This document shows, piece after piece, positions 26,721-37,534 of a stretch of DNA of 48,983 nucleotides. This DNA comes from Pseudodesulfovibrio sp. (GTDB lineage Bacteria; Desulfobacterota; Desulfovibrionia; Desulfovibrionales; Desulfovibrionaceae), in the NCBI RefSeq assembly GCF_028692895.1, contig NZ_JAQUWN010000025.1:1-48983 (forward strand), read 5' to 3'. Made by a program: the position numbers and the translations under genes. The notes under the pieces are model-generated. The model ran no database searches. It was given only the letters and a program-made list of their open reading frames with translations, and had not been told where the DNA came from. Numbering within the stretch: the stretch's first letter is position 1; every line of letters starts with the position of its first letter.

Positions 26721-26747
26721 ATGAAAAAATCCATCGCAAGGGGATAT

Positions 26748-27632
26748 ATGATTTCTCAATCCCAAACCATCGCGCACCTGGGAGAACGGCTCAAGGCTTA
26801 CAGAATCGGGAAAAACATGACTCCCGAGGAAGTGGCGCAGCGCAGCGGCGTCTCACGCGCGGCCATATACCGCTATGAATCCGGCCAGCCCATCCGCGTG
26901 GATGTGCTGGGCAAGATCGCCGACCTGCTCCAGGTGTCCCTGGAGTCGCTGCTCGGGGTCGGGGTCGAATATTTCTCCTCGGCCCTCGGTTTTTTCGAGC
27001 GGATGCGCCAGTTGGAGGAGACCGCCGAGCAACTCAGCGTCCTGTTCGGGCCCATCTCCTACCTCCTGACCACCGACGAGTACGACCGGCTCCTCTCCGA
27101 CGTCCTGGCCGAGAGCATTCCGCCCGACGTGGAGGGCCGGGTCCAGTTTCTTCTCGAAATCGAGAAGATTCTAAAAATCCTCAAGGCCAGGAAGAAGAGC
27201 TACCGGGAGCGCAAGCCGCACATCATCAGCCTGATCTCGGCGGCCGAGCTCGAATATTTCTGCCGGACCGGATTCATCGGCTGCAACAACCCGCGCGGCG
27301 TCAACCTGGACGACCGGGTCCGGGCCGCCAAGCGTGAGGTCCTGAACATCATCGAACTGCTCCGGACCCAGCCCATGGGCGTGCAGATCGGCGTACTGGT
27401 GGACTCGGCCCCGGGCGCCAGCTTCCAGATATTCAAGCAGGCCAACCACTCCGAGGTCGCGGTCAGCCCCTACAAGCTCGGCTCCTTCGCCAACATCCGC
27501 ATCGGGGTGGCCACCATCTCCTCGGCCCCGGAATCGGTCCGGCTGCACAACGACCTGACCCTCCAGCTCTGGGAGCGCAGCCTCAAGGGCGACAAGGCCG
27601 CCCGATACCTCCGGGACGCCATCGGCCTGTAG
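26748..27632 (+). CDS. XRE-family transcriptional regulator of the TRAP/pyr operon
   Basis: The ATG at 26748 is preceded by AAGGGG; the ATG at 26721 has no ribosome site and would lie at or before the transcript start. The 294-residue protein has a Cro/CI helix-turn-helix at about residues 10-65 (MTPEEVAQRSGVSRAAIYRYESG). The C-terminal half, from about residue 170, is a putative sensor (GVQIGVLVDSAPGASFQIFKQ, FANIRIGVATISSAPESVRLHNDL). Divergent position and facing palindromes suggest it controls dctP and the genes behind it; whether it represses or activates is unknown. The ligand may be an orotate-pathway compound. Confidence 0.82.
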   Translation: MISQSQTIAHLGERLKAYRIGKNMTPEEVAQRSGVSRAAIYRYESGQPIRVDVLGKIADLLQVSLESLLGVGVEYFSSALGFFERMRQLEETAEQLSVLFGPISYLLTTDEYDRLLSDVLAESIPPDVEGRVQFLLEIEKILKILKARKKSYRERKPHIISLISAAELEYFCRTGFIGCNNPRGVNLDDRVRAAKREVLNIIELLRTQPMGVQIGVLVDSAPGASFQIFKQANHSEVAVSPYKLGSFANIRIGVATISSAPESVRLHNDLTLQLWERSLKGDKAARYLRDAIGL

Positions 27633-27658: not shown

Positions 27659-27688
27659 GGCCCCGCAGCGACGCTCCGGGGCCTTTTT
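27659..27688 (+). terminator. intrinsic terminator after the XRE regulator
   Basis: The stem GGCCCCG (27659-27665) pairs with CGGGGCC (27677-27683) around an 11-base loop and is followed directly by TTTTT. It separates the regulator from the GAK cassette. Confidence 0.8.
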
Positions 27689-27807
27689 CGCGCGCCCGGC
27701 CCACCCCCGCCCCATGTGACGAATTGTTACAATTTCCCGCTCGCCATTGCCTCACCCCCCGGATTGATGCAATCGATATAAGCTCACTACACCAATGGAG
27801 GTTCCCC

Positions 27808-28338
27808 GTGGGAAGCAGCATCAAGTTACGGAAATACGTCGATCGGCAGGGCCTGGCCGCCTTCCTGCGCGAGCTGGCCGACGCCGTGGAGAACGGCGGA
27901 AGTGATGAACTGGCCTGCCTCGACGGGTTCCAGGAACTGAAGCTCGGCGTCAAGGACGAGTTCGGCCAGTTGAAAGTCAAGGCCAAGATCAAGCCGGCCG
28001 GGGCCTGCGAAGAGTCCGAAGGGGAAGAGCCCCTGGCCGACGGGACCACGCGGCCAAAGTACAAGACCCTCAAGAAGCGCATGAAAACGAGCTTCAACGT
28101 GCTGGTGAAGACGCTCCACGAGGGCCTGGTCCCGCCCCGGGAGGCCGCCGACGCCTTCCTGGCCGACGCCGCCCTGATGGTCACCTATCCCGGCTACGGC
28201 GACGAATATTACGAGAGCTTCTCCAGGGCGTGCGCCGCCTTCGCGGCCGCCTGCGAGTCCGGCGACGTGCCCGCCATGCACCAGGCCATCGACGCCCTGG
28301 TGCACGAGAAGAGCCGCTGCCACGCCAAGTACGACTGA
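27808..28338 (+). CDS. GAK-system XXXCH-domain protein
   Basis: The start is the GTG at 27808, with GGAGG six bases upstream; the longer frame from 27724 lacks a ribosome site. The 176-residue protein starts with a short amphipathic unit (RQGLAAFLRELADAVENGG) and an alternating-polarity strand (GQLKVKAKIKPAG) resembling an amphi-Trp module without the Trp. A helical bundle follows, ending in the motif SRCHAKYD with C171-H172. The terminal CH motif is why I match it to the XXXCH family recorded with GAK cassettes. A Cys-His pair near the end could bind metal or haem or accept a modification. First gene of the cassette. Confidence 0.75.
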   Translation: MGSSIKLRKYVDRQGLAAFLRELADAVENGGSDELACLDGFQELKLGVKDEFGQLKVKAKIKPAGACEESEGEEPLADGTTRPKYKTLKKRMKTSFNVLVKTLHEGLVPPREAADAFLADAALMVTYPGYGDEYYESFSRACAAFAAACESGDVPAMHQAIDALVHEKSRCHAKYD

Positions 28339-28362
28339 AACACACGCCCACGGACCGATGCG

Positions 28363-29520
28363 ATGAAACTGATAAAAAAGACCGACGCCCCGGCCTGCCG
28401 CTCCCTTGCTGAGGCCGTCACCGATGAAATCACCGACGCGGACCGGGCCCGGTTCCTCGCGGTGGTCTCCACGGACCTGGAGCCCTGGCAGATCGAGCAG
28501 GTGGTGACGCCCCCGAGCGCCCATCCCCGTCTGGAGGCCCTGCTGGCCACCCACTGGCACCCCGAGTTCGTGCCCTTCGACCTCATCCGCAAGCGGGTGG
28601 ACGCCATGTTCCCCAACCGCGAGGAGGAGCTGCTCATCCCCACCCAGCACAACGAGCTGATGGAATGGGACGGCTACTGCGGCGTGGAGGTGGACTGTTT
28701 TTCCTCCGGGTTCAACCGCAAGGTGCAGCTCCTGCTCCACTTCACGGCCGACCGGGTCAAGGACGCCGGGGTGCTGAAATCCATGCTGGCCCACACCTAC
28801 AAGTACCGCTCCAGCCAGCTCTTCGAATTCATGCGCGCCATCACCCGGCCCGACGCGGACCTGGTGGGCAAGGCGGCCAGGGCCGTAGGGGCCGACCAGG
28901 ACCTCATGGACTTCGTGCGCGCGAGCGTGGCCAAGGTCGAGCGGCTGCTGGAGGACAACTGGTCCGACGTGCCCCGCATGTCGGTCAAGAACAAGCTGCT
29001 GCGCAACTGGTTCGACGCCCAGCGCGCCGAACTGGGCGACACCGCCGTGGACCGCGCCCAGGCCTTCCTCAAGGCGGTCAAGGCGCTGGTCAAGCAGGGC
29101 TTCGACCTCTCCTTCTTCTACCGCGCGAGCGAAGTCATCGAGGAGGCGCGCGGGCTGGGCGGCGGCATCGTCATCCCCCACCCCGAGCAGTTCTGGCCCA
29201 TCCTGCTGCGCAACTACGACGTGGACGGGATCGAGGTCTGGAACCCGCAGTCCCAGGAATACACGGAGTTCCTCATCTCCGTGGTCAACGAACGCAACGG
29301 GCATCGGCCCTCGGGCCGCGACGTGCTCATCTTCATGGGCGACGACTGCCACATGGGCGAGAAGACCAAGGCCCCGGACCAGCAGGACCCGGCCAAGGCC
29401 GCCCGCGAAATCGGGCTCCAGCCCGCATGGGACGACCTCGCCATCCGCAAGAAGCTCATCGTCAACAACATCAGCCGCCGCACCGTCATCAGGGAATACA
29501 AGGCGCGCCTGGCGGGCTAG
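28363..29520 (+). CDS. PHP-like metal-dependent phosphoesterase of the GAK cassette
   Basis: A 385-residue protein I do not know by name. It carries a plausible set of PHP-domain ligands: THWHPEF (H64, H66; the HxH motif), H96 in PTQHNEL, GGGIVIPHPEQFW (H273; PHP motif III), GIEVWNPQSQ, and FMGDDCHMGEK (D327/D328, H330; motif IV). About 170 residues of helical insert (roughly 100-260) separate motifs I and III. PHP enzymes hydrolyse phosphoesters using two or three metals. The start follows a weak GGA 24 bases after the XXXCH gene. The function in the cassette is unknown; hydrolysis of a product made by the kinase or CofD-like enzyme is one possibility. Confidence 0.65.
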   Translation: MKLIKKTDAPACRSLAEAVTDEITDADRARFLAVVSTDLEPWQIEQVVTPPSAHPRLEALLATHWHPEFVPFDLIRKRVDAMFPNREEELLIPTQHNELMEWDGYCGVEVDCFSSGFNRKVQLLLHFTADRVKDAGVLKSMLAHTYKYRSSQLFEFMRAITRPDADLVGKAARAVGADQDLMDFVRASVAKVERLLEDNWSDVPRMSVKNKLLRNWFDAQRAELGDTAVDRAQAFLKAVKALVKQGFDLSFFYRASEVIEEARGLGGGIVIPHPEQFWPILLRNYDVDGIEVWNPQSQEYTEFLISVVNERNGHRPSGRDVLIFMGDDCHMGEKTKAPDQQDPAKAAREIGLQPAWDDLAIRKKLIVNNISRRTVIREYKARLAG

Positions 29521-29539
29521 CGCCCGGGGGGACACCACC

Positions 29540-29806
29540 ATGCCGGAACAACGTTTCGTCTTCGATTCGCTGCAGGACAGCGAGACCATCAAGGATTTCC
29601 TCGCCTCTCTCACCGAGGGGTTCGACAAGGGGACCATCACCCTCTCCACCAACGGAGAAGTCATCGAACTCAACCCGGGCGGGCTGCTCAACTTCACGGT
29701 CAAGGCCAAGAAGAAGGGCGGCAGCAACAAGATCTCCATCAAGGTGGAGTGGAAGGACAGCCAGAAGGACAAGAAACTCAGCGAATCGCCGCTGGTCGTC
29801 TCCTAG
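29540..29806 (+). CDS. amphi-Trp domain protein, GAK cassette (copy 1)
   Basis: An 88-residue protein consisting of little but the amphi-Trp domain: a helix (DSETIKDFLASLTEGFDKG), a short beta pair (ITLSTNGEVIELNP), and alternating strands ending in ISIKVEWKDS with the signature Trp. It is probably a small soluble scaffold or carrier. Two more copies occur at 34658 and 35932. The SD is GGGGGG upstream. The next gene starts 2 bases after its stop. Confidence 0.82.
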   Translation: MPEQRFVFDSLQDSETIKDFLASLTEGFDKGTITLSTNGEVIELNPGGLLNFTVKAKKKGGSNKISIKVEWKDSQKDKKLSESPLVVS

Positions 29807-29808
29807 CC

Positions 29809-31464
29809 ATGATAACATTCGAAGGACTGGACGAGAACTTCAACTTCATCGTCCTCGAAGTGGAAAACCAGGCCAAGGCCACCCGGAAGTTCATGGACGC
29901 GCCTTCGCGCAACATGCACACCAAGATCGCCAACCGCGACGACTACATCGACAACCTGAAGACCATCATCGAGAACAAGTGCTACTCGCGCATCCACGCC
30001 GACCACTCCCTGGACCGCAACCAGGTCAACAAGATTCGGGCCATTCAGGTGATCTGCGTCAACCTTGAGAAGATCGCCGACTATTTCGTCAACATCACCA
30101 AGCAGATGCGCTACCTCGACGACCAGTCGTTCATCAAGAAGTACGACTACGACGAGGTCTTCGACGTCATCATGGACCGGCTTGCGGCCGTGCTCTCCGC
30201 CCTGCGCAAGGAGGACATGTCCAAGGCCCTCTACATCTGCAAGGCCGAGCCGATCCTGGACGACCTCTACAAGGTCCGCTTCGACCGGGTGATGAACGAG
30301 ATGGGGCTCGGGCGCGACGCCCAGAGCCTGGTCACCGTGCTCTTCATCTTCCGCTACTTCGAGCGGGTGGGCGACGCCCTGCTCAACATCGGCGAGGCGA
30401 TCATCTTCTCCATGCTCGGCGAGCGGATCAAGATCGAGCAGTTCGACGCCCTGCAGCGGACCCTGACCAAGTCCGGGTTCAGCGGCTCGCTGGCGGACAT
30501 CGACTTCCGGGCCATATGGGGCAGCCGTTCCGGCTGCCGCATCGGCAAGGTCGAGCAGCGCGAGGACGAGGTCTCCGCCAACGAGGGGCACAAACAGGGG
30601 TCCATCTACAAGGAAGGCAGCCTGGAAAAGATCCGCAAGGAGCGCGAGTCCATCCTGCGCTGGAAAAAGACCTTCCCCAACCTGGTGCCAGACATCTACG
30701 GGTTCCACGAGGAGGCCGACAAGGGGGCCATGCTCGTGGAGTTCCTCAACGGCTGCACCCTGGACGAGGTGGTCCTCACGGGCGAGGACGAGTTCGTGCG
30801 CAACGCCCTGTTCATTTTCGAGTCCACGGTGCTGGAGACCTGGACCACGACCCTGGAGCGGCTTCCGCTGCGGACCGACTACATCCGGCAGGTCCAGAAG
30901 CGGCTGGGCGGCGTCCTCCAGACCCACCCCGAGTTCTGGCGCACCCCGCAGGCCATGGGCCAGGCCAAGGTCTGCTCAACCGAGTCGCTGCTCAAGGAAT
31001 GCGCTGAGATCGAGGCCGAGATCGAGGCCCCGTTCTCGGTCTTCATCCACGGCGACTTCAACATCAACAACGTGGTCTACGACCACGCGGCCCAGCAGAT
31101 CCACTACATCGACCTCTACCGGTCCCGGGACTTCGACTACATCCAGGATGTCTCGGTCTTCCTGGTCTCCAACTTCCGCATGCCCATCTTCGACGCGAAC
31201 CACCGCGACCGGATCAACAAGGTCATCGGCCAGTTCTACGGCTTCGCCAAGGAGTTCGCCCTCCGGCGCGAGGACCCGACCTTCGAGGCGCGGATGGCCT
31301 TCGCCCTGGCCCGGTCCTTCTACACCTCCACCCGGTTCGAGCTGAACTTCCAGTTCTCCAAGGAGATGTACAACCGGTCCATGTTCCTGCTGGAAAAAAT
31401 TCATCACTACCGGGGTGGCGACTGGCGACAGTTTGCCCTGCCCGAGGACATCCTCTACTATTAA
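29809..31464 (+). CDS. PhoU-like domain fused to an APH-type phosphotransferase
   Basis: The start at 29809 gives 551 residues. Residues 1-215 form helices of PhoU type (IRAIQVICVNLEKIADYFVNI; VLFIFRYFERVGDALLNIGE), the two-repeat pattern of phosphate-signalling PhoU proteins. From about 260 a kinase fold follows: SIYKEGSLEKIRKERESIL, then the catalytic loop IHGDFNINNVVYD (H414, D416, N421) and the metal site YIDLYRSRDFDYIQD. The fusion suggests a kinase controlled by, or acting on, metal-phosphate clusters. It is central in the GAK cassette; the substrate is unknown. Confidence 0.8.
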   Translation: MITFEGLDENFNFIVLEVENQAKATRKFMDAPSRNMHTKIANRDDYIDNLKTIIENKCYSRIHADHSLDRNQVNKIRAIQVICVNLEKIADYFVNITKQMRYLDDQSFIKKYDYDEVFDVIMDRLAAVLSALRKEDMSKALYICKAEPILDDLYKVRFDRVMNEMGLGRDAQSLVTVLFIFRYFERVGDALLNIGEAIIFSMLGERIKIEQFDALQRTLTKSGFSGSLADIDFRAIWGSRSGCRIGKVEQREDEVSANEGHKQGSIYKEGSLEKIRKERESILRWKKTFPNLVPDIYGFHEEADKGAMLVEFLNGCTLDEVVLTGEDEFVRNALFIFESTVLETWTTTLERLPLRTDYIRQVQKRLGGVLQTHPEFWRTPQAMGQAKVCSTESLLKECAEIEAEIEAPFSVFIHGDFNINNVVYDHAAQQIHYIDLYRSRDFDYIQDVSVFLVSNFRMPIFDANHRDRINKVIGQFYGFAKEFALRREDPTFEARMAFALARSFYTSTRFELNFQFSKEMYNRSMFLLEKIHHYRGGDWRQFALPEDILYY

Positions 31465-31483
31465 GCACGCAAGGAGCGGACCC

Positions 31484-32353
31484 GTGAGAATAGGAGTCAT
31501 CGGAACCAAGGGAGGCTGGTCCTCCGAAAAGCTGGCCGACGCCGTGGCGGAAAAGACCGGCGAACGCGTCCTCATCGGCATGGACGAGGTCCGCCTGGAC
31601 CTGCCGTCCGGCGACGCCTTCTACAACGGGCACAACCTCGCCGACTTCGACGCCCTCATCATCAAGAAGATCGGCTCGCGCTACTCCCCGGACCTGCTGG
31701 ACCGGCTGGAGGTGCTGCGCTACCTGGCCGAGCGCGGGCTCAGGATATTCAGCTCGCCCCTGGCCATCCTCCGGGCCCTTGACCGGCTGTCCTGCACCGT
31801 GTCCCTCCAGCTCGGCGGCATCCCCATGCCCCCCACCACCATCACCGAGTCCGTGGACCAGGCCCTCACCGCCCTCGGCGAATACGGCGAGGCGGTGTTC
31901 AAGCCGCTCTACACCTCCAAGGCGCGCGGCATGTGCATCCTGCGCGACGGCCCGGAAGCCCGCGCGGCCATCGAGGAATACCGGGCGGAGAACCCGATGA
32001 TGTACATCCAGAAGACCATCGAGCTGGGCGACCTGGACCTGGGCATCGCCTTCCTCGGCGGCGAGTACCTGACCACCTACGCCCGCTGCAAGACCAACGG
32101 CGCGTGGAACACCACCACGGCCTCGGGCGGCAAGTACCGGCCCTACGAGCCCGCGGCCGAGATCATCGAGCTGGCCCGCCGGGCCCAGGCCCCCTTCGGC
32201 CTGGACTTCACCTGCGTGGACGTGGCCATCACCGACGACGGCCCCTACGTCTTCGAGGTCTCGGTCTTCGGCGGATTCCGGGGCATCCAGGAAACCAGCG
32301 GCATCGACGCGGCCGCGAAATACGTGGACTACGTCATGGAGCGACTCGGATGA
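31484..32353 (+). CDS. GAK-system ATP-grasp enzyme (RimK-like)
   Basis: The start is the GTG at 31484 preceded by AAGGAG; the longer frame from 31415 overlaps the upstream gene and is rejected. The 289-residue protein has RIGVIGTKGG at the N-terminus and the ATP-grasp lysines in AVFKPLYTSKARGM. The metal- and substrate-binding end is YVFEVSVFGGFRGIQETSGIDAAAKYVDYV, close to RimK/LysX-type ligases. Such enzymes add amino acids or peptides to a carboxylate through an acyl-phosphate, often on a carrier protein. The amphi-Trp or XXXCH proteins are obvious candidate targets (inference). It overlaps the next gene by 4 bases. Confidence 0.83.
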   Translation: MRIGVIGTKGGWSSEKLADAVAEKTGERVLIGMDEVRLDLPSGDAFYNGHNLADFDALIIKKIGSRYSPDLLDRLEVLRYLAERGLRIFSSPLAILRALDRLSCTVSLQLGGIPMPPTTITESVDQALTALGEYGEAVFKPLYTSKARGMCILRDGPEARAAIEEYRAENPMMYIQKTIELGDLDLGIAFLGGEYLTTYARCKTNGAWNTTTASGGKYRPYEPAAEIIELARRAQAPFGLDFTCVDVAITDDGPYVFEVSVFGGFRGIQETSGIDAAAKYVDYVMERLG

Positions 32354-33444
32354 AGCTGACCGGAATCACGCGCGCGGCCCTGGCCGCCGAAATCAGAAAC
32401 GCCGTCCCGGCGAAACGCGAACTCCTGCTCGACTTCGGCGGCTGCGTCCTGCGGGTCCTGACCAGCACCGACGCGCTGCACGACGACCTCGCCGGGTACT
32501 TCAAGGAATTCCTCACCGCCTCCGGCGCGCCGGAGATCGTGATCTCCGCCCACGAGGCCGAGACCCCGGAGCTCGGCATCGACTTCGACACCAAGCAGCC
32601 CGACCCCGGCAAGAGCAAGATCAAGGAGGAGTGGGCCGACCTCCCGGACGGCCGCGCGGTGCGCAAGCGGATCACCGGCATGCACTTCTTCTTCGGCGAC
32701 GGCGAGAACGTGGCCGTGGGCCCCTGCCTCGCCAACTCCAACCAGGTCATCAACTTCATCAACAACCGGTTCATCGAGTGGAAGCTCAACCGGGGCGGCC
32801 TGCTGGGGCACGCGGCGGGCGTGGTCCACGCCGGGCGCGGCATCTCGCTGGCCGGATTCTCCGGCGCGGGCAAGTCCACCCTGGCCCTGCACCTGATGAG
32901 CCGGGGAACGGACTTCCTGTCCAACGACCGGGTCATCGTCGAGGCCGACGGCGAAGGGGTGACCATGTACGGCGTGGCCAAGCAGCCGCGCATCAACCCC
33001 GGCACAGCCCTGCACAACCCGGACCTCTGCAACATCGTGGAGCCCGAGCTGCGCAAGGAATTCCTGTCCATGCCCGCCGAGGAGCTGTGGAAGCTGGAGC
33101 ACAAATACGACGCGCTCATCGACGAATGCTACGGCCCCGGCAAGTTTTCGCTCCGCTCCAAGATGCACGGCCTGGTCATCCTCAACTGGAAGCGCGGCGG
33201 CGGCGAGATGAAGGCCGCCCTGGTGGACCCGCGCGAGCGGCCCGACCTGCTGCCCGCGTTCATGAAGGGCACCGGCCTGTTCTACCTCCCGGACGACCCG
33301 GCCCTGGCCGGGGACCCCGGCGCGGCGGCCTACGCCGACCTGCTGGGCAAGGCCGACCTGGTGGAGATATCGGGCGGCGTGGACTTCGACCGGGCCGCCG
33401 ACCTCTGCCTGCGCTACATGGAGACCGGCGAACTGCCGGAGTAG
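32350..33444 (+). CDS. HprK-related kinase B (GAK system)
   Basis: The start at 32350 overlaps the ATP-grasp stop. The 364-residue protein has an HPr-kinase-like core: H154 in LLGHAAGVVHAG, the P-loop GFSGAGKST (169-177) and the catalytic-type Asp region FLSNDRVIV (D193). A substrate region (GVAKQPRINPGTAL) follows. The N-terminal 110 residues are specific to this branch. HprK enzymes phosphorylate a serine on a small carrier, so the likely target is a small protein of the cassette. No HPr gene is in the window. Confidence 0.85.
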   Translation: MKLTGITRAALAAEIRNAVPAKRELLLDFGGCVLRVLTSTDALHDDLAGYFKEFLTASGAPEIVISAHEAETPELGIDFDTKQPDPGKSKIKEEWADLPDGRAVRKRITGMHFFFGDGENVAVGPCLANSNQVINFINNRFIEWKLNRGGLLGHAAGVVHAGRGISLAGFSGAGKSTLALHLMSRGTDFLSNDRVIVEADGEGVTMYGVAKQPRINPGTALHNPDLCNIVEPELRKEFLSMPAEELWKLEHKYDALIDECYGPGKFSLRSKMHGLVILNWKRGGGEMKAALVDPRERPDLLPAFMKGTGLFYLPDDPALAGDPGAAAYADLLGKADLVEISGGVDFDRAADLCLRYMETGELPE

Positions 33445-33449
33445 ACGTC

Positions 33450-34631
33450 ATGCGGCTCACCGTCACGCGCGAGGTCGAAATCCCGGACCCGTTCAAGCTG
33501 GAGCTGTACCGCAAGGCCCCGGAGCTGGGGCCGCGCATCCTGTTCTTCAGCGGCGGCTCCGCCCTGCGCGACACCTCGCGCGAGATCATCCGGTACACCC
33601 GCAACTCCATCCACCTGATCACCCCCTTCGACTCGGGCGGCAGCTCGGCCATCCTGCGCAAGGCCTTCGCCATGCCAGCCGTGGGCGACATCCGCAACCG
33701 GCTCATGGCCCTGGCCGACCAGTCCGTCCAGGGCAACCCGGAGATATACGCCCTCTTCGCCCACCGGCTGCCCAAGGACCTCGGCCCGGACGAGCTGCGC
33801 CGGGAGGCCGACGCCATGGCCTCGGGCGCGCATCCTCTGGTCCGCTGCGTCCCGGACCCCATGCGCAAGATCATCCGCAACCACCTCCACCGCTTCCTGG
33901 AGGCCATGCCGGACGGCTTCGACCTGCGCGGCGCGAGCATCGGCAACCTCGTGCTCACGGCGGGCTACCTGGACAACCGGCGGCGCATCGACCCGGTCAT
34001 CTACATCTTTTCCAAGCTGGTCCAGGTCTGCGGCGTGGTCCGCCCGACCATCAACAAGCACCTCCACCTGGCCGCGCGGCTGGAGGACGGCCGGACCGTC
34101 GTCGGCCAGCACCGCATGACCGGCAAGGAGGCCGCCCCCCTCACGTCGCCCATCAAGGACATCTGGATCACAGGGTCCCTGGACGACGAGGCCCCCGTGC
34201 GCCCGGCCATCCGCAACAAGGTGCGCGAGCTCATCGCCGGGGCCGGGCTGATCTGCTACCCGCCCGGCAGCTTCTTCACCAGCGTGGTGGCCAACCTCCT
34301 GCCCCAGGGCGTGGGCGAGGCCGTGGCCAGAAACCCCTGCCCCAAGGTTTTCGCGCCCAACACCGGCCACGACCCGGAGTCCCACCGGCTGAGCGTGGCC
34401 GCCCAGGTCCGCATCCTGCGCGACAAGCTGGCCGGGAGCGGGGCCGCCCCCGGCTCCACCCTGGATTTCGTGCTGCTGGACCTGAAAAACGGCGACTATC
34501 CCGGCGGCGTCAACCCGCAGGCCATCCGCCGCCAGGGGGTCAAGATCATCGAGGCGAACCTCGTCACCGCCGAGAGCCGTCCGCGCCTGGACGCCCGGCC
34601 GCTGTGCGAGATTCTGGCGTCACTTGCATAA
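33450..34631 (+). CDS. CofD/YvcK-related protein (GAK system)
   Basis: The start at 33450 lies 5 bases after the HprK-like stop. The 393-residue protein shows the CofD/YvcK pattern: LFFSGGSALRDTS, ITPFDSGGSSAILRKAF, AVGDIRNRLMALAD, a GNLVLTAGYLD segment and CYPPGSFFTSVVANLLP. CofD transfers phospholactyl groups to a deazaflavin; YvcK is a UDP-sugar-binding regulator of cell-wall and carbon metabolism. Which role applies is not clear. DSGGSS, GDIRN and GNL match YvcK closely. Confidence 0.83.
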   Translation: MRLTVTREVEIPDPFKLELYRKAPELGPRILFFSGGSALRDTSREIIRYTRNSIHLITPFDSGGSSAILRKAFAMPAVGDIRNRLMALADQSVQGNPEIYALFAHRLPKDLGPDELRREADAMASGAHPLVRCVPDPMRKIIRNHLHRFLEAMPDGFDLRGASIGNLVLTAGYLDNRRRIDPVIYIFSKLVQVCGVVRPTINKHLHLAARLEDGRTVVGQHRMTGKEAAPLTSPIKDIWITGSLDDEAPVRPAIRNKVRELIAGAGLICYPPGSFFTSVVANLLPQGVGEAVARNPCPKVFAPNTGHDPESHRLSVAAQVRILRDKLAGSGAAPGSTLDFVLLDLKNGDYPGGVNPQAIRRQGVKIIEANLVTAESRPRLDARPLCEILASLA

Positions 34632-34657
34632 CAACCAACCCGCAAGGAGCGTGTGAG

Positions 34658-35149
34658 ATGGAAAAACGGAAGATCGGCGTCAAGACGGCACTGCCCTACA
34701 CCGAGGCCGTGGCCTACCTGAAGGCGCTCGTCAAAAGCCTGGAGTCCGGCAGGATCGTCGTGGAGAGCGGCGGCGAGCACGTCGCGCTCACCCCCGGCGA
34801 CCAGGTCGAAATCGAGGTCGAGGCCAAGACCGGCAAAGGCCGGCAGAAATTCAGCCTGGAGATCGGCTGGGCCGAGATGGGCGCGACGGACCTGAAGATC
34901 AGCGACAAGGAGCCCGCGCCCGCCCCGAAATCCGACGCGGAAGCGGCCCCGGAGCTCGCCCCGGCAACGGCCGAGGAAAAGACGGCCCTGCCCGAGGCCC
35001 AGGCCGACGAAGGGGCCGGGAAGAAAGAAGAAAAGAACAAAAAGGAAAAGAAGACAAAGAAGGACAAACCCGAGAAAAAGGACAAGTCCGAAAAGAAGGC
35101 CAAGCCCGAAAAGTCCAAGAGCAAGACGGACAAAAAGGCGAAAAAGTAG
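34658..35149 (+). CDS. amphi-Trp domain protein with long lysine-rich tail (copy 2)
   Basis: The ATG at 34658 follows AAGGAGC. Residues 1-85 are an amphi-Trp domain (TEAVAYLKALVKSLESG; QKFSLEIGWAEMG). Residues 95-130 are an Ala/Glu/Pro linker, and the last 45 are almost only Lys, Glu, Asp and Ser, with repeated KKEKK/KKDK-type units. Such polybasic tails bind nucleic acid, polyphosphate or acidic membranes. Next to a ParA, a nucleoid tether is attractive but unproven. The tail is far more biased than any neighbouring product. Confidence 0.8.
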   Translation: MEKRKIGVKTALPYTEAVAYLKALVKSLESGRIVVESGGEHVALTPGDQVEIEVEAKTGKGRQKFSLEIGWAEMGATDLKISDKEPAPAPKSDAEAAPELAPATAEEKTALPEAQADEGAGKKEEKNKKEKKTKKDKPEKKDKSEKKAKPEKSKSKTDKKAKK

Positions 35150-35179
35150 CCGCGCCCCAGGCGGCGTGACGGGAGGAGC

Positions 35180-35935
35180 ATGCGGATCATCGCGGTACTC
35201 AACCAGAAGGGCGGCGTCGGCAAGACGTCGACCTCGGTCAACCTGGGGGCGGGACTGGCCCGGCAGGGACAGCGCGTCCTGCTGCTCGACCTCGACCCGC
35301 AGGCGCACCTGACCTATTCCCTGGGCATCATGGCCCACGAACTGCCCCGGACCATGGGGGCCGTCCTCATGGGCGACTGCGCCCTCGGGGACGTGACCAC
35401 CACGGTCGGCGGCCTCGACGTGGTCCCGGCCTCGGTCTCCCTGGCCGGGACCGAGGTGGACCTGGCCGGGGCCGAGAACCGGGAGACCCGGCTCAAGGCC
35501 GCCCTGGCCGGGGTCTCGGGCTACGACTTCGTCATCATGGACTGCCCGCCCAACCTCGGCCTGCTGACCCTCAACGCCATGACCGCCGCCACCGAACTGC
35601 TGGTCCCTGTCCAGCCCGAGTTCCTGGCCCTCCAGAGCCTGGGCAAGCTGATGGAGACCGTCAAGGCCATCCGCAGCGGCTGGAACCCGGACCTGAGGCT
35701 GACCGGCGTGGTCCTGACCCGCTACCAGCGCCAGAAGCGGCTCAACCGCGAGACCCGGAGCAGCATCCGGGCCTATTTCGGCGACGCCCTGCTCGATACG
35801 GCCATCCGCGACAACATATCCCTGGCCGAGGCCCCCAGCTTCGGCCAGGACATCTTCACCTACAAACCGCAGAGCAACGGGGCCGAGGACTATCGCAGCC
35901 TCGCCCTGGAGCTGCTGCACCGAGGTGCTCCATGA
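35180..35935 (+). CDS. ParA-family ATPase, orphan
   Basis: A 251-residue ParA/Soj-type protein with the deviant Walker A KGGVGKTS (from K10), LLLDLDPQAHLT (Walker A'), VIMDCPPNLGLLTLNA (Walker B) and ELLVPVQPEFLALQSL. These ATPases dimerise on DNA and move or space cargo. No ParB or centromere-like repeats are near, so it is not a replicon partition system. The downstream gene overlaps its stop and supplies a possible ParB-like partner. GGGAGGAGC precedes the start. Confidence 0.92.
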   Translation: MRIIAVLNQKGGVGKTSTSVNLGAGLARQGQRVLLLDLDPQAHLTYSLGIMAHELPRTMGAVLMGDCALGDVTTTVGGLDVVPASVSLAGTEVDLAGAENRETRLKAALAGVSGYDFVIMDCPPNLGLLTLNAMTAATELLVPVQPEFLALQSLGKLMETVKAIRSGWNPDLRLTGVVLTRYQRQKRLNRETRSSIRAYFGDALLDTAIRDNISLAEAPSFGQDIFTYKPQSNGAEDYRSLALELLHRGAP

Positions 35936-36438
35936 GCGACGACAAGCGACTCGGGGCCAATCCCCTGGAGTGGGTGGCCCGCGACCCGGCGGAGCCCGGC
36001 CCCGACGGCGTCCCGGCCGAAATCCCCTTCCCGGCGGCCCCCGCAGCCCCGGAGGCGGCGCGACCGGCCCAAGACGACAACCCGGCCCCGGGCGACGCCG
36101 AATCGGCCCCGGCCGTGGGCGAAGCCGAATGCCCGGCCTTCGCCATCACCATTCCCGACACCATCAGCGAGGAGGACCGGATGAGCAACGGCAAAGTCAA
36201 GATCAAGCAGACCATGGACACCGAACAGGCCGCCGCCTACCTGGAGGACCTGGCCAAATCCCTGACCTCCGGCGTGGTCCGGGTCCAGAGCGGGGACGAC
36301 AACGTGGTCCTCTTCGCCGCCGACACCATGAAGTTCGAGATGAAGCTCAGCCGCAAGAAGGACAAGGCCAAGTGCTCCATAGAGATGGAGTGGGAGGACG
36401 ACGGCAGCAACGCGGCCGGGTTCAGCATCTCCGGCTAG
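35932..36438 (+). CDS. amphi-Trp domain protein with N-terminal ParA-partner-like peptide (copy 3)
   Basis: It overlaps parA by 4 bases (ATGA), with GAGG six bases before the ATG. The 168-residue product has an N-terminal basic peptide (DKRLGANPLEWVA, residues 4-16) reminiscent of the LGxGLxAL peptide by which ParB contacts ParA. A Pro/Ala-rich disordered linker (20-80) and a C-terminal amphi-Trp domain (84-162, KCSIEMEWED) follow. An internal ATG at 36181 has a strong GGAGG five bases upstream and would give an 85-residue stand-alone amphi-Trp protein, nearly the size of copy 1, so two products are possible. Last gene of the cassette. Confidence 0.8.
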   Translation: MSDDKRLGANPLEWVARDPAEPGPDGVPAEIPFPAAPAAPEAARPAQDDNPAPGDAESAPAVGEAECPAFAITIPDTISEEDRMSNGKVKIKQTMDTEQAAAYLEDLAKSLTSGVVRVQSGDDNVVLFAADTMKFEMKLSRKKDKAKCSIEMEWEDDGSNAAGFSISG

Positions 36439-36556: not shown

Positions 36557-37534
36557 ATGCGATACATTCACAACCGGGTCACCGATCCGACGTTCAACCT
36601 CGCGGCCGAGGAATGGCTGATGACCCGGACCGGGGACGAGATCTTCATGCTCTGGCGCAACCAGCCCGCTGTCATCGTCGGCCGGAACCAGAACACCCTC
36701 TCGGAGATCGACGAGGACTTCACCAGGTCGCGTGGCATCCCGGTGGTCCGCCGCATGAGCGGGGGCGGGGCCGTGTTCCACGACCTGGGCAACATCAACT
36801 TCACCTTCATCCAGAACGGTTCGCCCGAAGGCGGGCTGGACTTCCAGCGCTTCACCGCGCCCATCCAGCGGGCCCTGCTGAGCATGGGCGTGCACGCCGA
36901 GTTCAGCGGCCGCAACGACCTGCTCATCGAGGGCAGGAAATTCTCCGGCAACGCCCAGCACTTCCACCGCAACCGCGTCCTGCACCACGGCACCCTGCTC
37001 TTCGCCTCGGACATGACCGACCTCTCCGGCGCGCTGCGCGTGGACCCGGAGAAATACCGGGACAAGGCGGTCAAGAGCGTCCGCTCGCGCGTGACCAACA
37101 TATCAAGCCACCTGCCCGAGCCCATGGAGGTCACGGCGTTCATCACCGCGCTCATGGCCTTCGTCTCCGGCTCGGCAGACCAGGCTGGCATGGCCCTCTC
37201 CAACGAGGAGACCCTCGCCATCGAGCAACTGGCCGAAGAGCGCTACCGCACCTGGGACTGGAACTTCGGCTCGTCCCCGGCCTACAACTTCTCCAGGCGC
37301 ACCCGCACGCCCGGCGGCCTGCTCGACGTCCATCTCTACGTGAAAAAGGGCGTCATCACCGAGGTCCGGCTCTACGGCGACTACTTCGGCGTGCGCGACG
37401 TCGGGCCCCTGGAGGCGCTGGTGCGGGGCAGCCGCCACGACCGGGCCGCCCTGGCCGAACGTCTGGCCGACGTGGCGCTGGACGACTACCTGCACGGCGT
37501 CACCCTGCCCGTCTTCATCGACTGCCTGTTCTGA
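36557..37534 (+). CDS. lplA: lipoate-protein ligase A
   Basis: The start at 36557 (MRYIHNRVTD) follows AAAGGAG. The 325-residue protein has the LplA signature VVRRMSGGGAVFHDLGNINFTFI, the substrate lysine region EGRKFSGNAQHF, and the C-terminal accessory domain (WDWNFGSSPAYNF). It activates lipoate with ATP and attaches it to lipoyl domains. The only lipoyl protein in the window is the E2 at 42505, so that dehydrogenase is its likely client. A 118-base gap with a small dyad separates it from the GAK cassette. Confidence 0.93.
   Translation: MRYIHNRVTDPTFNLAAEEWLMTRTGDEIFMLWRNQPAVIVGRNQNTLSEIDEDFTRSRGIPVVRRMSGGGAVFHDLGNINFTFIQNGSPEGGLDFQRFTAPIQRALLSMGVHAEFSGRNDLLIEGRKFSGNAQHFHRNRVLHHGTLLFASDMTDLSGALRVDPEKYRDKAVKSVRSRVTNISSHLPEPMEVTAFITALMAFVSGSADQAGMALSNEETLAIEQLAEERYRTWDWNFGSSPAYNFSRRTRTPGGLLDVHLYVKKGVITEVRLYGDYFGVRDVGPLEALVRGSRHDRAALAERLADVALDDYLHGVTLPVFIDCLF

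Follow-up and report, generated by a model that had tools for sequence, protein, structure and literature searches.

The GAK gene cassette of a Pseudodesulfovibrio contig: a conserved operon with a possible role in phosphate storage

The cassette and its conserved core

The window analyzed here is a stretch of 48,983 nucleotides (nt) from Pseudodesulfovibrio sp. (contig NZ_JAQUWN010000025.1, assembly GCF_028692895.1), and our subject is the GAK cassette which it carries (Table 1). A first-pass annotation, made from the DNA letters alone, had described ten plus-strand genes in a tight operon; all ten are present between 27808 and 36438, with neighbors that overlap by 4 nt at one extreme and stand 30 nt apart at the other. 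The families it had named for the ATP-grasp, HprK-like, CofD-like, amphi-Trp and XXXCH proteins all score above the NCBIfam cut-offs, and models for these five components of a GAK system (TIGR04354-TIGR04358) do exist in that database. The PhoU-kinase fusion and the ParA ATPase were likewise found as described. The GTG starts of the XXXCH and ATP-grasp genes were chosen by us, and the codon of the latter was checked. The dedicated terminator postulated upstream is real, its absence from the pattern scan being probably due to the scan's loop limit of 8, and the postulated downstream gap measures 118 bp up to the ATG of the lipoate ligase gene lplA at 36557, the first gene after the cassette, with one weak terminator-like site inside it (0.5 expected). 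The NCBIfam system and the window thus share five families in one operon; the models, unlike the window, omit the PHP phosphoesterase, the PhoU-kinase fusion and ParA, and the window's ParA with its amphi-Trp protein 3 is an extra module. The models name no function, and GAK has so far been a database name for which we found none.

Table 1. Features of the GAK cassette and its upstream region in the window.
Feature	Position	Strand	Remarks
Intrinsic terminator closing upstream helix-turn-helix gene	27659..27688	+	stem GGCCCCG/CGGGGCC then TTTTT; -19.3 kcal/mol, z -3.3
PhoB-box-like direct repeat TGTGAC-GAAT-TGTTAC	27715..27730	+	fits D. vulgaris PhoB half-site as published, 4-bp spacer
GAK XXXCH protein	27808..28338	+	TIGR04358 108 bits; diverged N-terminal amphi-Trp domain; GTG start
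PHP-fold phosphoesterase (predicted)	28363..29520	+	matches no Pfam or NCBIfam model
Amphi-Trp protein 1	29540..29806	+	TIGR04354 69.6 bits
PhoU domain fused to APH-like kinase	29809..31464	+	PhoU and APH in Pfam
GAK ATP-grasp enzyme	31484..32353	+	TIGR04356 451 bits; GTG start
HprK-related kinase B (HprK-B)	32350..33444	+	TIGR04355 534 bits
GAK CofD-like protein	33450..34631	+	TIGR04357 544 bits
Amphi-Trp protein 2, Lys-rich C-terminal tail	34658..35149	+	TIGR04354 66 bits
ParA ATPase, accessory	35180..35935	+	AAA_31 177 bits
Amphi-Trp protein 3, N-terminal KRLGANPLEWV peptide, accessory	35932..36438	+	TIGR04354 65 bits

Conservation was examined in a phylum sample of 297 genomes, from which 19 new stretches around ATP-grasp matches were taken, and in public genomes, where the best 80 of at least 499 confirmed ATP-grasp relatives were used as loci and the window was added; loci are numbered with L and genomes with G. 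The window proteins served to build the models with which the cassette families were mapped. Neighbors were counted on the same strand within 6.5 kb in the 64 loci, window included, where the ATP-grasp gene is flanked by 5.5 kb or more in either direction; one of these (L052) holds a distant non-GAK ATP-grasp (27% identity; 153 bits, cut-off 300), and without it the neighbor counts given next are the same over 63.

Beside the ATP-grasp gene we found PHP in 56 loci, the PhoU-kinase, HprK-B and amphi-Trp in 60 each, CofD-like in 53, XXXCH in 40 and a ParA-like gene in four. The order PHP, amphi-Trp, PhoU-kinase, ATP-grasp, HprK-B is kept in 47 of the 64 loci, with CofD next in 40, and part of the misses are sorting effects from overlapping open frames. 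In the phylum sample HprK-B is present in 19 of the 20 GAK genomes versus one of the 277 others, PHP in 17 versus four and CofD in 15 versus nine, while amphi-Trp is present in 13/13 GAK genomes versus 0/13 polyphosphate kinase carriers, both of these sets being hand-chosen and non-random. Two genomes have the cassette split over two places (L046 with L145, L047 with L144). Of the earlier view that all ten genes are one system, the part concerning PHP, the PhoU-kinase, HprK-B and CofD stood, and the part concerning ParA did not: an intact ParA lies near the operon in 3/64 loci (window, L056, L077) and a degenerate fragment in L078, which places it outside the conserved operon. From co-localization and co-occurrence we can therefore conclude that a GAK core of about eight genes forms one system, to which ParA and amphi-Trp protein 3 are an add-on.

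Conserved features of the proteins

The PHP-like protein belongs to the PHP phosphoesterase superfamily by fold and conserved ligands, which makes phosphoesterase its predicted activity. The fold test returned the PHP fold, and a set of His/Asp/Glu metal ligands, matched to the PHP motifs by reading, is invariant in 41 sequences, as in the PHP phosphoesterases BAD_1165 and RNase AM; identity with these along the aligned stretch is about 18%. Both kinases keep their motifs: HGDxNxxN and D435 are invariant in 32 PhoU-kinases, and Walker A GxSGxGKST and NDR in 33 HprK-B sequences. The nearest relatives of the CofD-like protein in the PDB are YvcK-type proteins (2ppv, E 8.8e-34), and it scores under the curated YvcK/CofD-related cut-off (107.6 of 196 bits). 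The ATP-grasp enzyme is likewise under the curated cut-offs for MptN (145.6 of 350 bits) and the RimK family (105 of 143 bits), and has E-x-S where two aligned RimK relatives have E-x-N.

The model of amphi-Trp protein 1 consists of a helix and four strands (predicted local distance difference test score, pLDDT, 86.9). Among 50 aligned amphi-Trp proteins W71 is the sole invariant residue, L21, P46, A56 and K59 reach at least 90%, and no conserved C-terminal acceptor was seen in these 50 sequences. The N-terminus of the XXXCH protein is a weak amphi-Trp domain (TIGR04354 20.9 bits, cut-off 31). The tail of amphi-Trp protein 2 has 61 residues, 39% of them Lys or Arg and 23% Asp or Glu. Tails of at least 40 residues are carried by 26/68 downstream versus 2/84 upstream amphi-Trp matches when XXXCH proteins and one duplicate are omitted (32/75 versus 4/87 before), and several are rich in Ala, Lys and Pro, resembling the histone-H1-like tail of AlgP. 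Two ParA types adjoin amphi-Trp genes. The window type is accompanied by a KRLGxNPLxWV-like peptide (window, L056 and L054, the last with too little flank for the 64-locus count), and the other type is found in L077; among the scanned amphi-Trp proteins the KRLGANPLEWV-type peptide is restricted to the three loci with the window-type ParA.

Phosphate links and a possible reserve

We noticed TGTNAC repeats in our own data before finding that the PhoB box of Desulfovibrio vulgaris is reported as a direct repeat of the 6-bp unit (c/t)GT(n)AC, the two copies lying 4 bp apart, on the basis of DNA-affinity chip and gel shift (PMC3333781); a later paper gives an 18-bp consensus (PMC6456213). For 74 operons we searched both strands for YGTNAC repeats in a 370-bp region surrounding the point where the first matched domain (XXXCH or PHP) begins; 359 regions lying upstream of other genes from these loci, and 43 upstream of phosphate genes, served for comparison. 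The direct repeat exceeds the regions of the other genes at period 11, with 16/74 operons versus 14/359 other genes (p 2e-6) and 7/43 phosphate genes. Period 10 occurs in 2/74 operons (window, L055) versus 1/359 (p 0.08), and periods 8, 9 and 12-15 in none or one operon each. In 20 GAK genomes exact TGTNAC repeats in front of PstC were counted nine times at period 11 (both strands, palindromes counted twice) versus once at the remaining periods between 7 and 16 taken together.

The neighboring genes point in the same direction. PstC is above cut-off in 61 of the 66 GAK genomes searched, mostly as a single copy, and is found 10 kb or less from the ATP-grasp gene in five (L051, L079, L084, L117, L126) where 0.37 were expected (Poisson p ~4e-5 if the loci are independent, which they are not fully). 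A full pst set is found near GAK in L100, which is cut short downstream and stands outside this count, and partial pst or phoU sets in L048, L074, L102, L109, L114, L116 and L127. In one genome with CofD and without ATP-grasp (G161, L142) CofD follows pstA-pstB-phoU, the first two identified by reading, and precedes mgtE. In the FCPU426 loci L126 and L127, GAK is followed by PhoB-like and PhoR-like genes (by reading) and then PstS. The gene content is also suggestive, with a PhoU fusion, two kinases, a PHP protein and, in PHP's place in the alphaproteobacterial versions, a metallophosphatase and a histidine phosphatase, often with a Nudix enzyme.

It is therefore likely that GAK is linked to phosphate, and the presence of phosphate-uptake neighbors or phosphate-switch-like sites in a good part of the hosts suggests a role in handling a phosphate reserve and not a protein tag. 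That GAK serves a phosphate store we propose only tentatively, and equally tentative is the fuller form, in which the cassette belongs to the Pho regulon and keeps a phosphate reserve, in phosphorylated form, inside an amphi-Trp coat. This proposal builds on the conserved operon, the co-occurrence, the catalytic motifs, the PHP fold, the PhoB-box-like sites and the pst adjacency. The PhoU-fused kinase, HprK-B, the CofD-like protein and the ATP-grasp enzyme would together build a phosphorylated organic compound, putatively under PhoB control; glucose pentakis(diphosphate), reportedly the material of D. gigas granules, is one candidate. The PHP phosphoesterase, or its alphaproteobacterial substitutes, would free phosphate from the compound, and the amphi-Trp and XXXCH proteins may bind or coat the reserve. 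A granule form is somewhat more doubtful than the store itself, and binding of granules by amphi-Trp is a guess, because searches with the amphi-Trp model brought up no known fold. Phosphorus-rich granules, absent under phosphate limitation, are described in D. alaskensis G20 (PMC5193443), which we cite for the granules and not as a GAK carrier. The Lys-rich tails of downstream amphi-Trp proteins may tether the reserve to the nucleoid, much as AlgP, with its histone-H1-like tail, is reported to space polyphosphate granules (PMC9239181, PMC13052382); the likeness lies in a putative phosphate store and a DNA-binding-like tail, and unlike that system, the phylum sample's 20 GAK genomes gave no PPK1 or CHAD, a difference that is not significant. 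ParA and its amphi-Trp partner could space the reserve in the window and a few relatives, in the manner reported for McdAB and carboxysomes (PMC13052382), where ParA also adjoins a small partner; here the partner is an amphi-Trp protein, the module is rare and its cargo is putative.

Several observations weigh against this proposal. In most loci the range covered contains no pst gene, 56 of the 74 operons lack a PhoB-like repeat, the period-11 repeat also occurs in control regions, the site in the window repeats at period 10, whose enrichment is not significant, and related genomes make the promoter and neighbor counts non-independent. Replacement of polyphosphate kinase by GAK is not significant either (0/20 versus 30/277, p 0.24). 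The family of the ATP-grasp enzyme consists of amino-acid ligases, for which a phosphate reserve has no obvious use, tails with both at least 40 residues and more than 30% Lys and Arg number just three (window, L054, L056), and the substrates of the enzymes and the operon's response to phosphate are putative.

It is rather unlikely that GAK amounts to a second, polyphosphate kinase-independent phosphate-storage organelle of bacteria, where dedicated enzymes, controlled by Pho, would produce a (pyro)phosphorylated organic molecule, amphi-Trp proteins would form the surface and ParA or histone-like tails would see to distribution. If it does, the cassette would account genetically for the electron-dense phosphorus granules that sulfate reducers have. 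Should GAK serve as a store, phosphorus keeping in some bacteria without polyphosphate kinase would be explained, and a new protein-coated inclusion would join the short list of bacterial organelles. The PhoB-like boxes and pst genes make the function of GAK testable in ordinary laboratory sulfate reducers.

Unlikely, though the strongest alternative, is a phosphate-linked cofactor or signal instead of a store: a phosphodiester with added amino acids, resembling the F420 tail, would be the product of CofD-like and CofF/MptN-like enzymes and would be sensed by the PhoU domain. As among the F420 side-chain enzymes CofD and CofF/MptN, relatives of the CofD and RimK/MptN families adjoin each other, and the PhoU fusion, pst adjacency and PhoB-like boxes suit a Pho signal equally well; the scores under the CofD-related/YvcK and MptN cut-offs and the E-x-S motif set them apart, and three or four amphi-Trp proteins, Lys-rich tails and ParA would be left unexplained. 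RimK relatives modify proteins, and amphi-Trp co-occurs with the enzymes in the hand-chosen genomes, both of which favor the mechanism of the first-pass annotation, where amphi-Trp and XXXCH are carrier proteins modified by the ATP-grasp ligase and kinases and the PHP enzyme reverses this. It found no specific support: W71 alone is invariant, no conserved C-terminal acceptor was seen in the 50 sequences, and the operon surroundings and upstream sites, which it does not predict, point to phosphate. We regard it as quite improbable. Plain co-regulation of a phosphatase/kinase operon, for example in organic phosphate scavenging with no storage, could also lie behind the PhoB-like sites and pst genes. 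It would suit the PHP, metallophosphatase, histidine phosphatase and Nudix genes, but two kinases and an ATP-grasp enzyme imply a synthetic direction that costs ATP, which would be odd for scavenging, and it is very improbable. Regarding anti-phage defense, PADLOC models gave just two weak matches, both ParA.

One genus of the same family as the window (G076, G109, G138, G165, G190, G235, G256) stands apart from the four GAK genomes of that family. These seven genomes keep the GAK CofD-like gene and have no ATP-grasp; PPK1 is present in six of them and absent from the family's four GAK genomes.

Neighboring genes and variant loci

Directly upstream of the cassette, on the same strand, lies a helix-turn-helix regulator (26721-27632). 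It and the lipoate ligase gene adjoin GAK in 1/64 loci, the window alone, and the regulator is therefore probably unrelated to the cassette. A protein of about 800 residues that joins a PHP-like N-terminus (by reading) to a GT4 glycosyltransferase domain (L126:4217-6730), or a relative of this protein, lies within about 10 kb of GAK, on either strand, in 19/100 loci. PIN-PhoH-like genes are close to GAK in ten loci (e.g. L048, L078, L037, L051), nine of them distinct, L038 being the same record as L103. Peroxiredoxin-like and phosphotransacetylase-like frames (by reading) stand between HprK-B and CofD in two loci (L046:11419-14388, L047:11338-14281), and in L136 an acetate kinase-like frame (by reading) adjoins a PhoU-kinase. 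In L039 (G046) PHP, PhoU-kinase, CofD and one amphi-Trp gene map in pieces, with in-frame TGA/TAG reported for PHP and CofD, which could be attributed to decay, sequencing error or recoding. Two GAK loci each are found in Desulfamplus magnetovallimortis (L090 and L099) and in one groundwater metagenome-assembled genome (L105 and L128).

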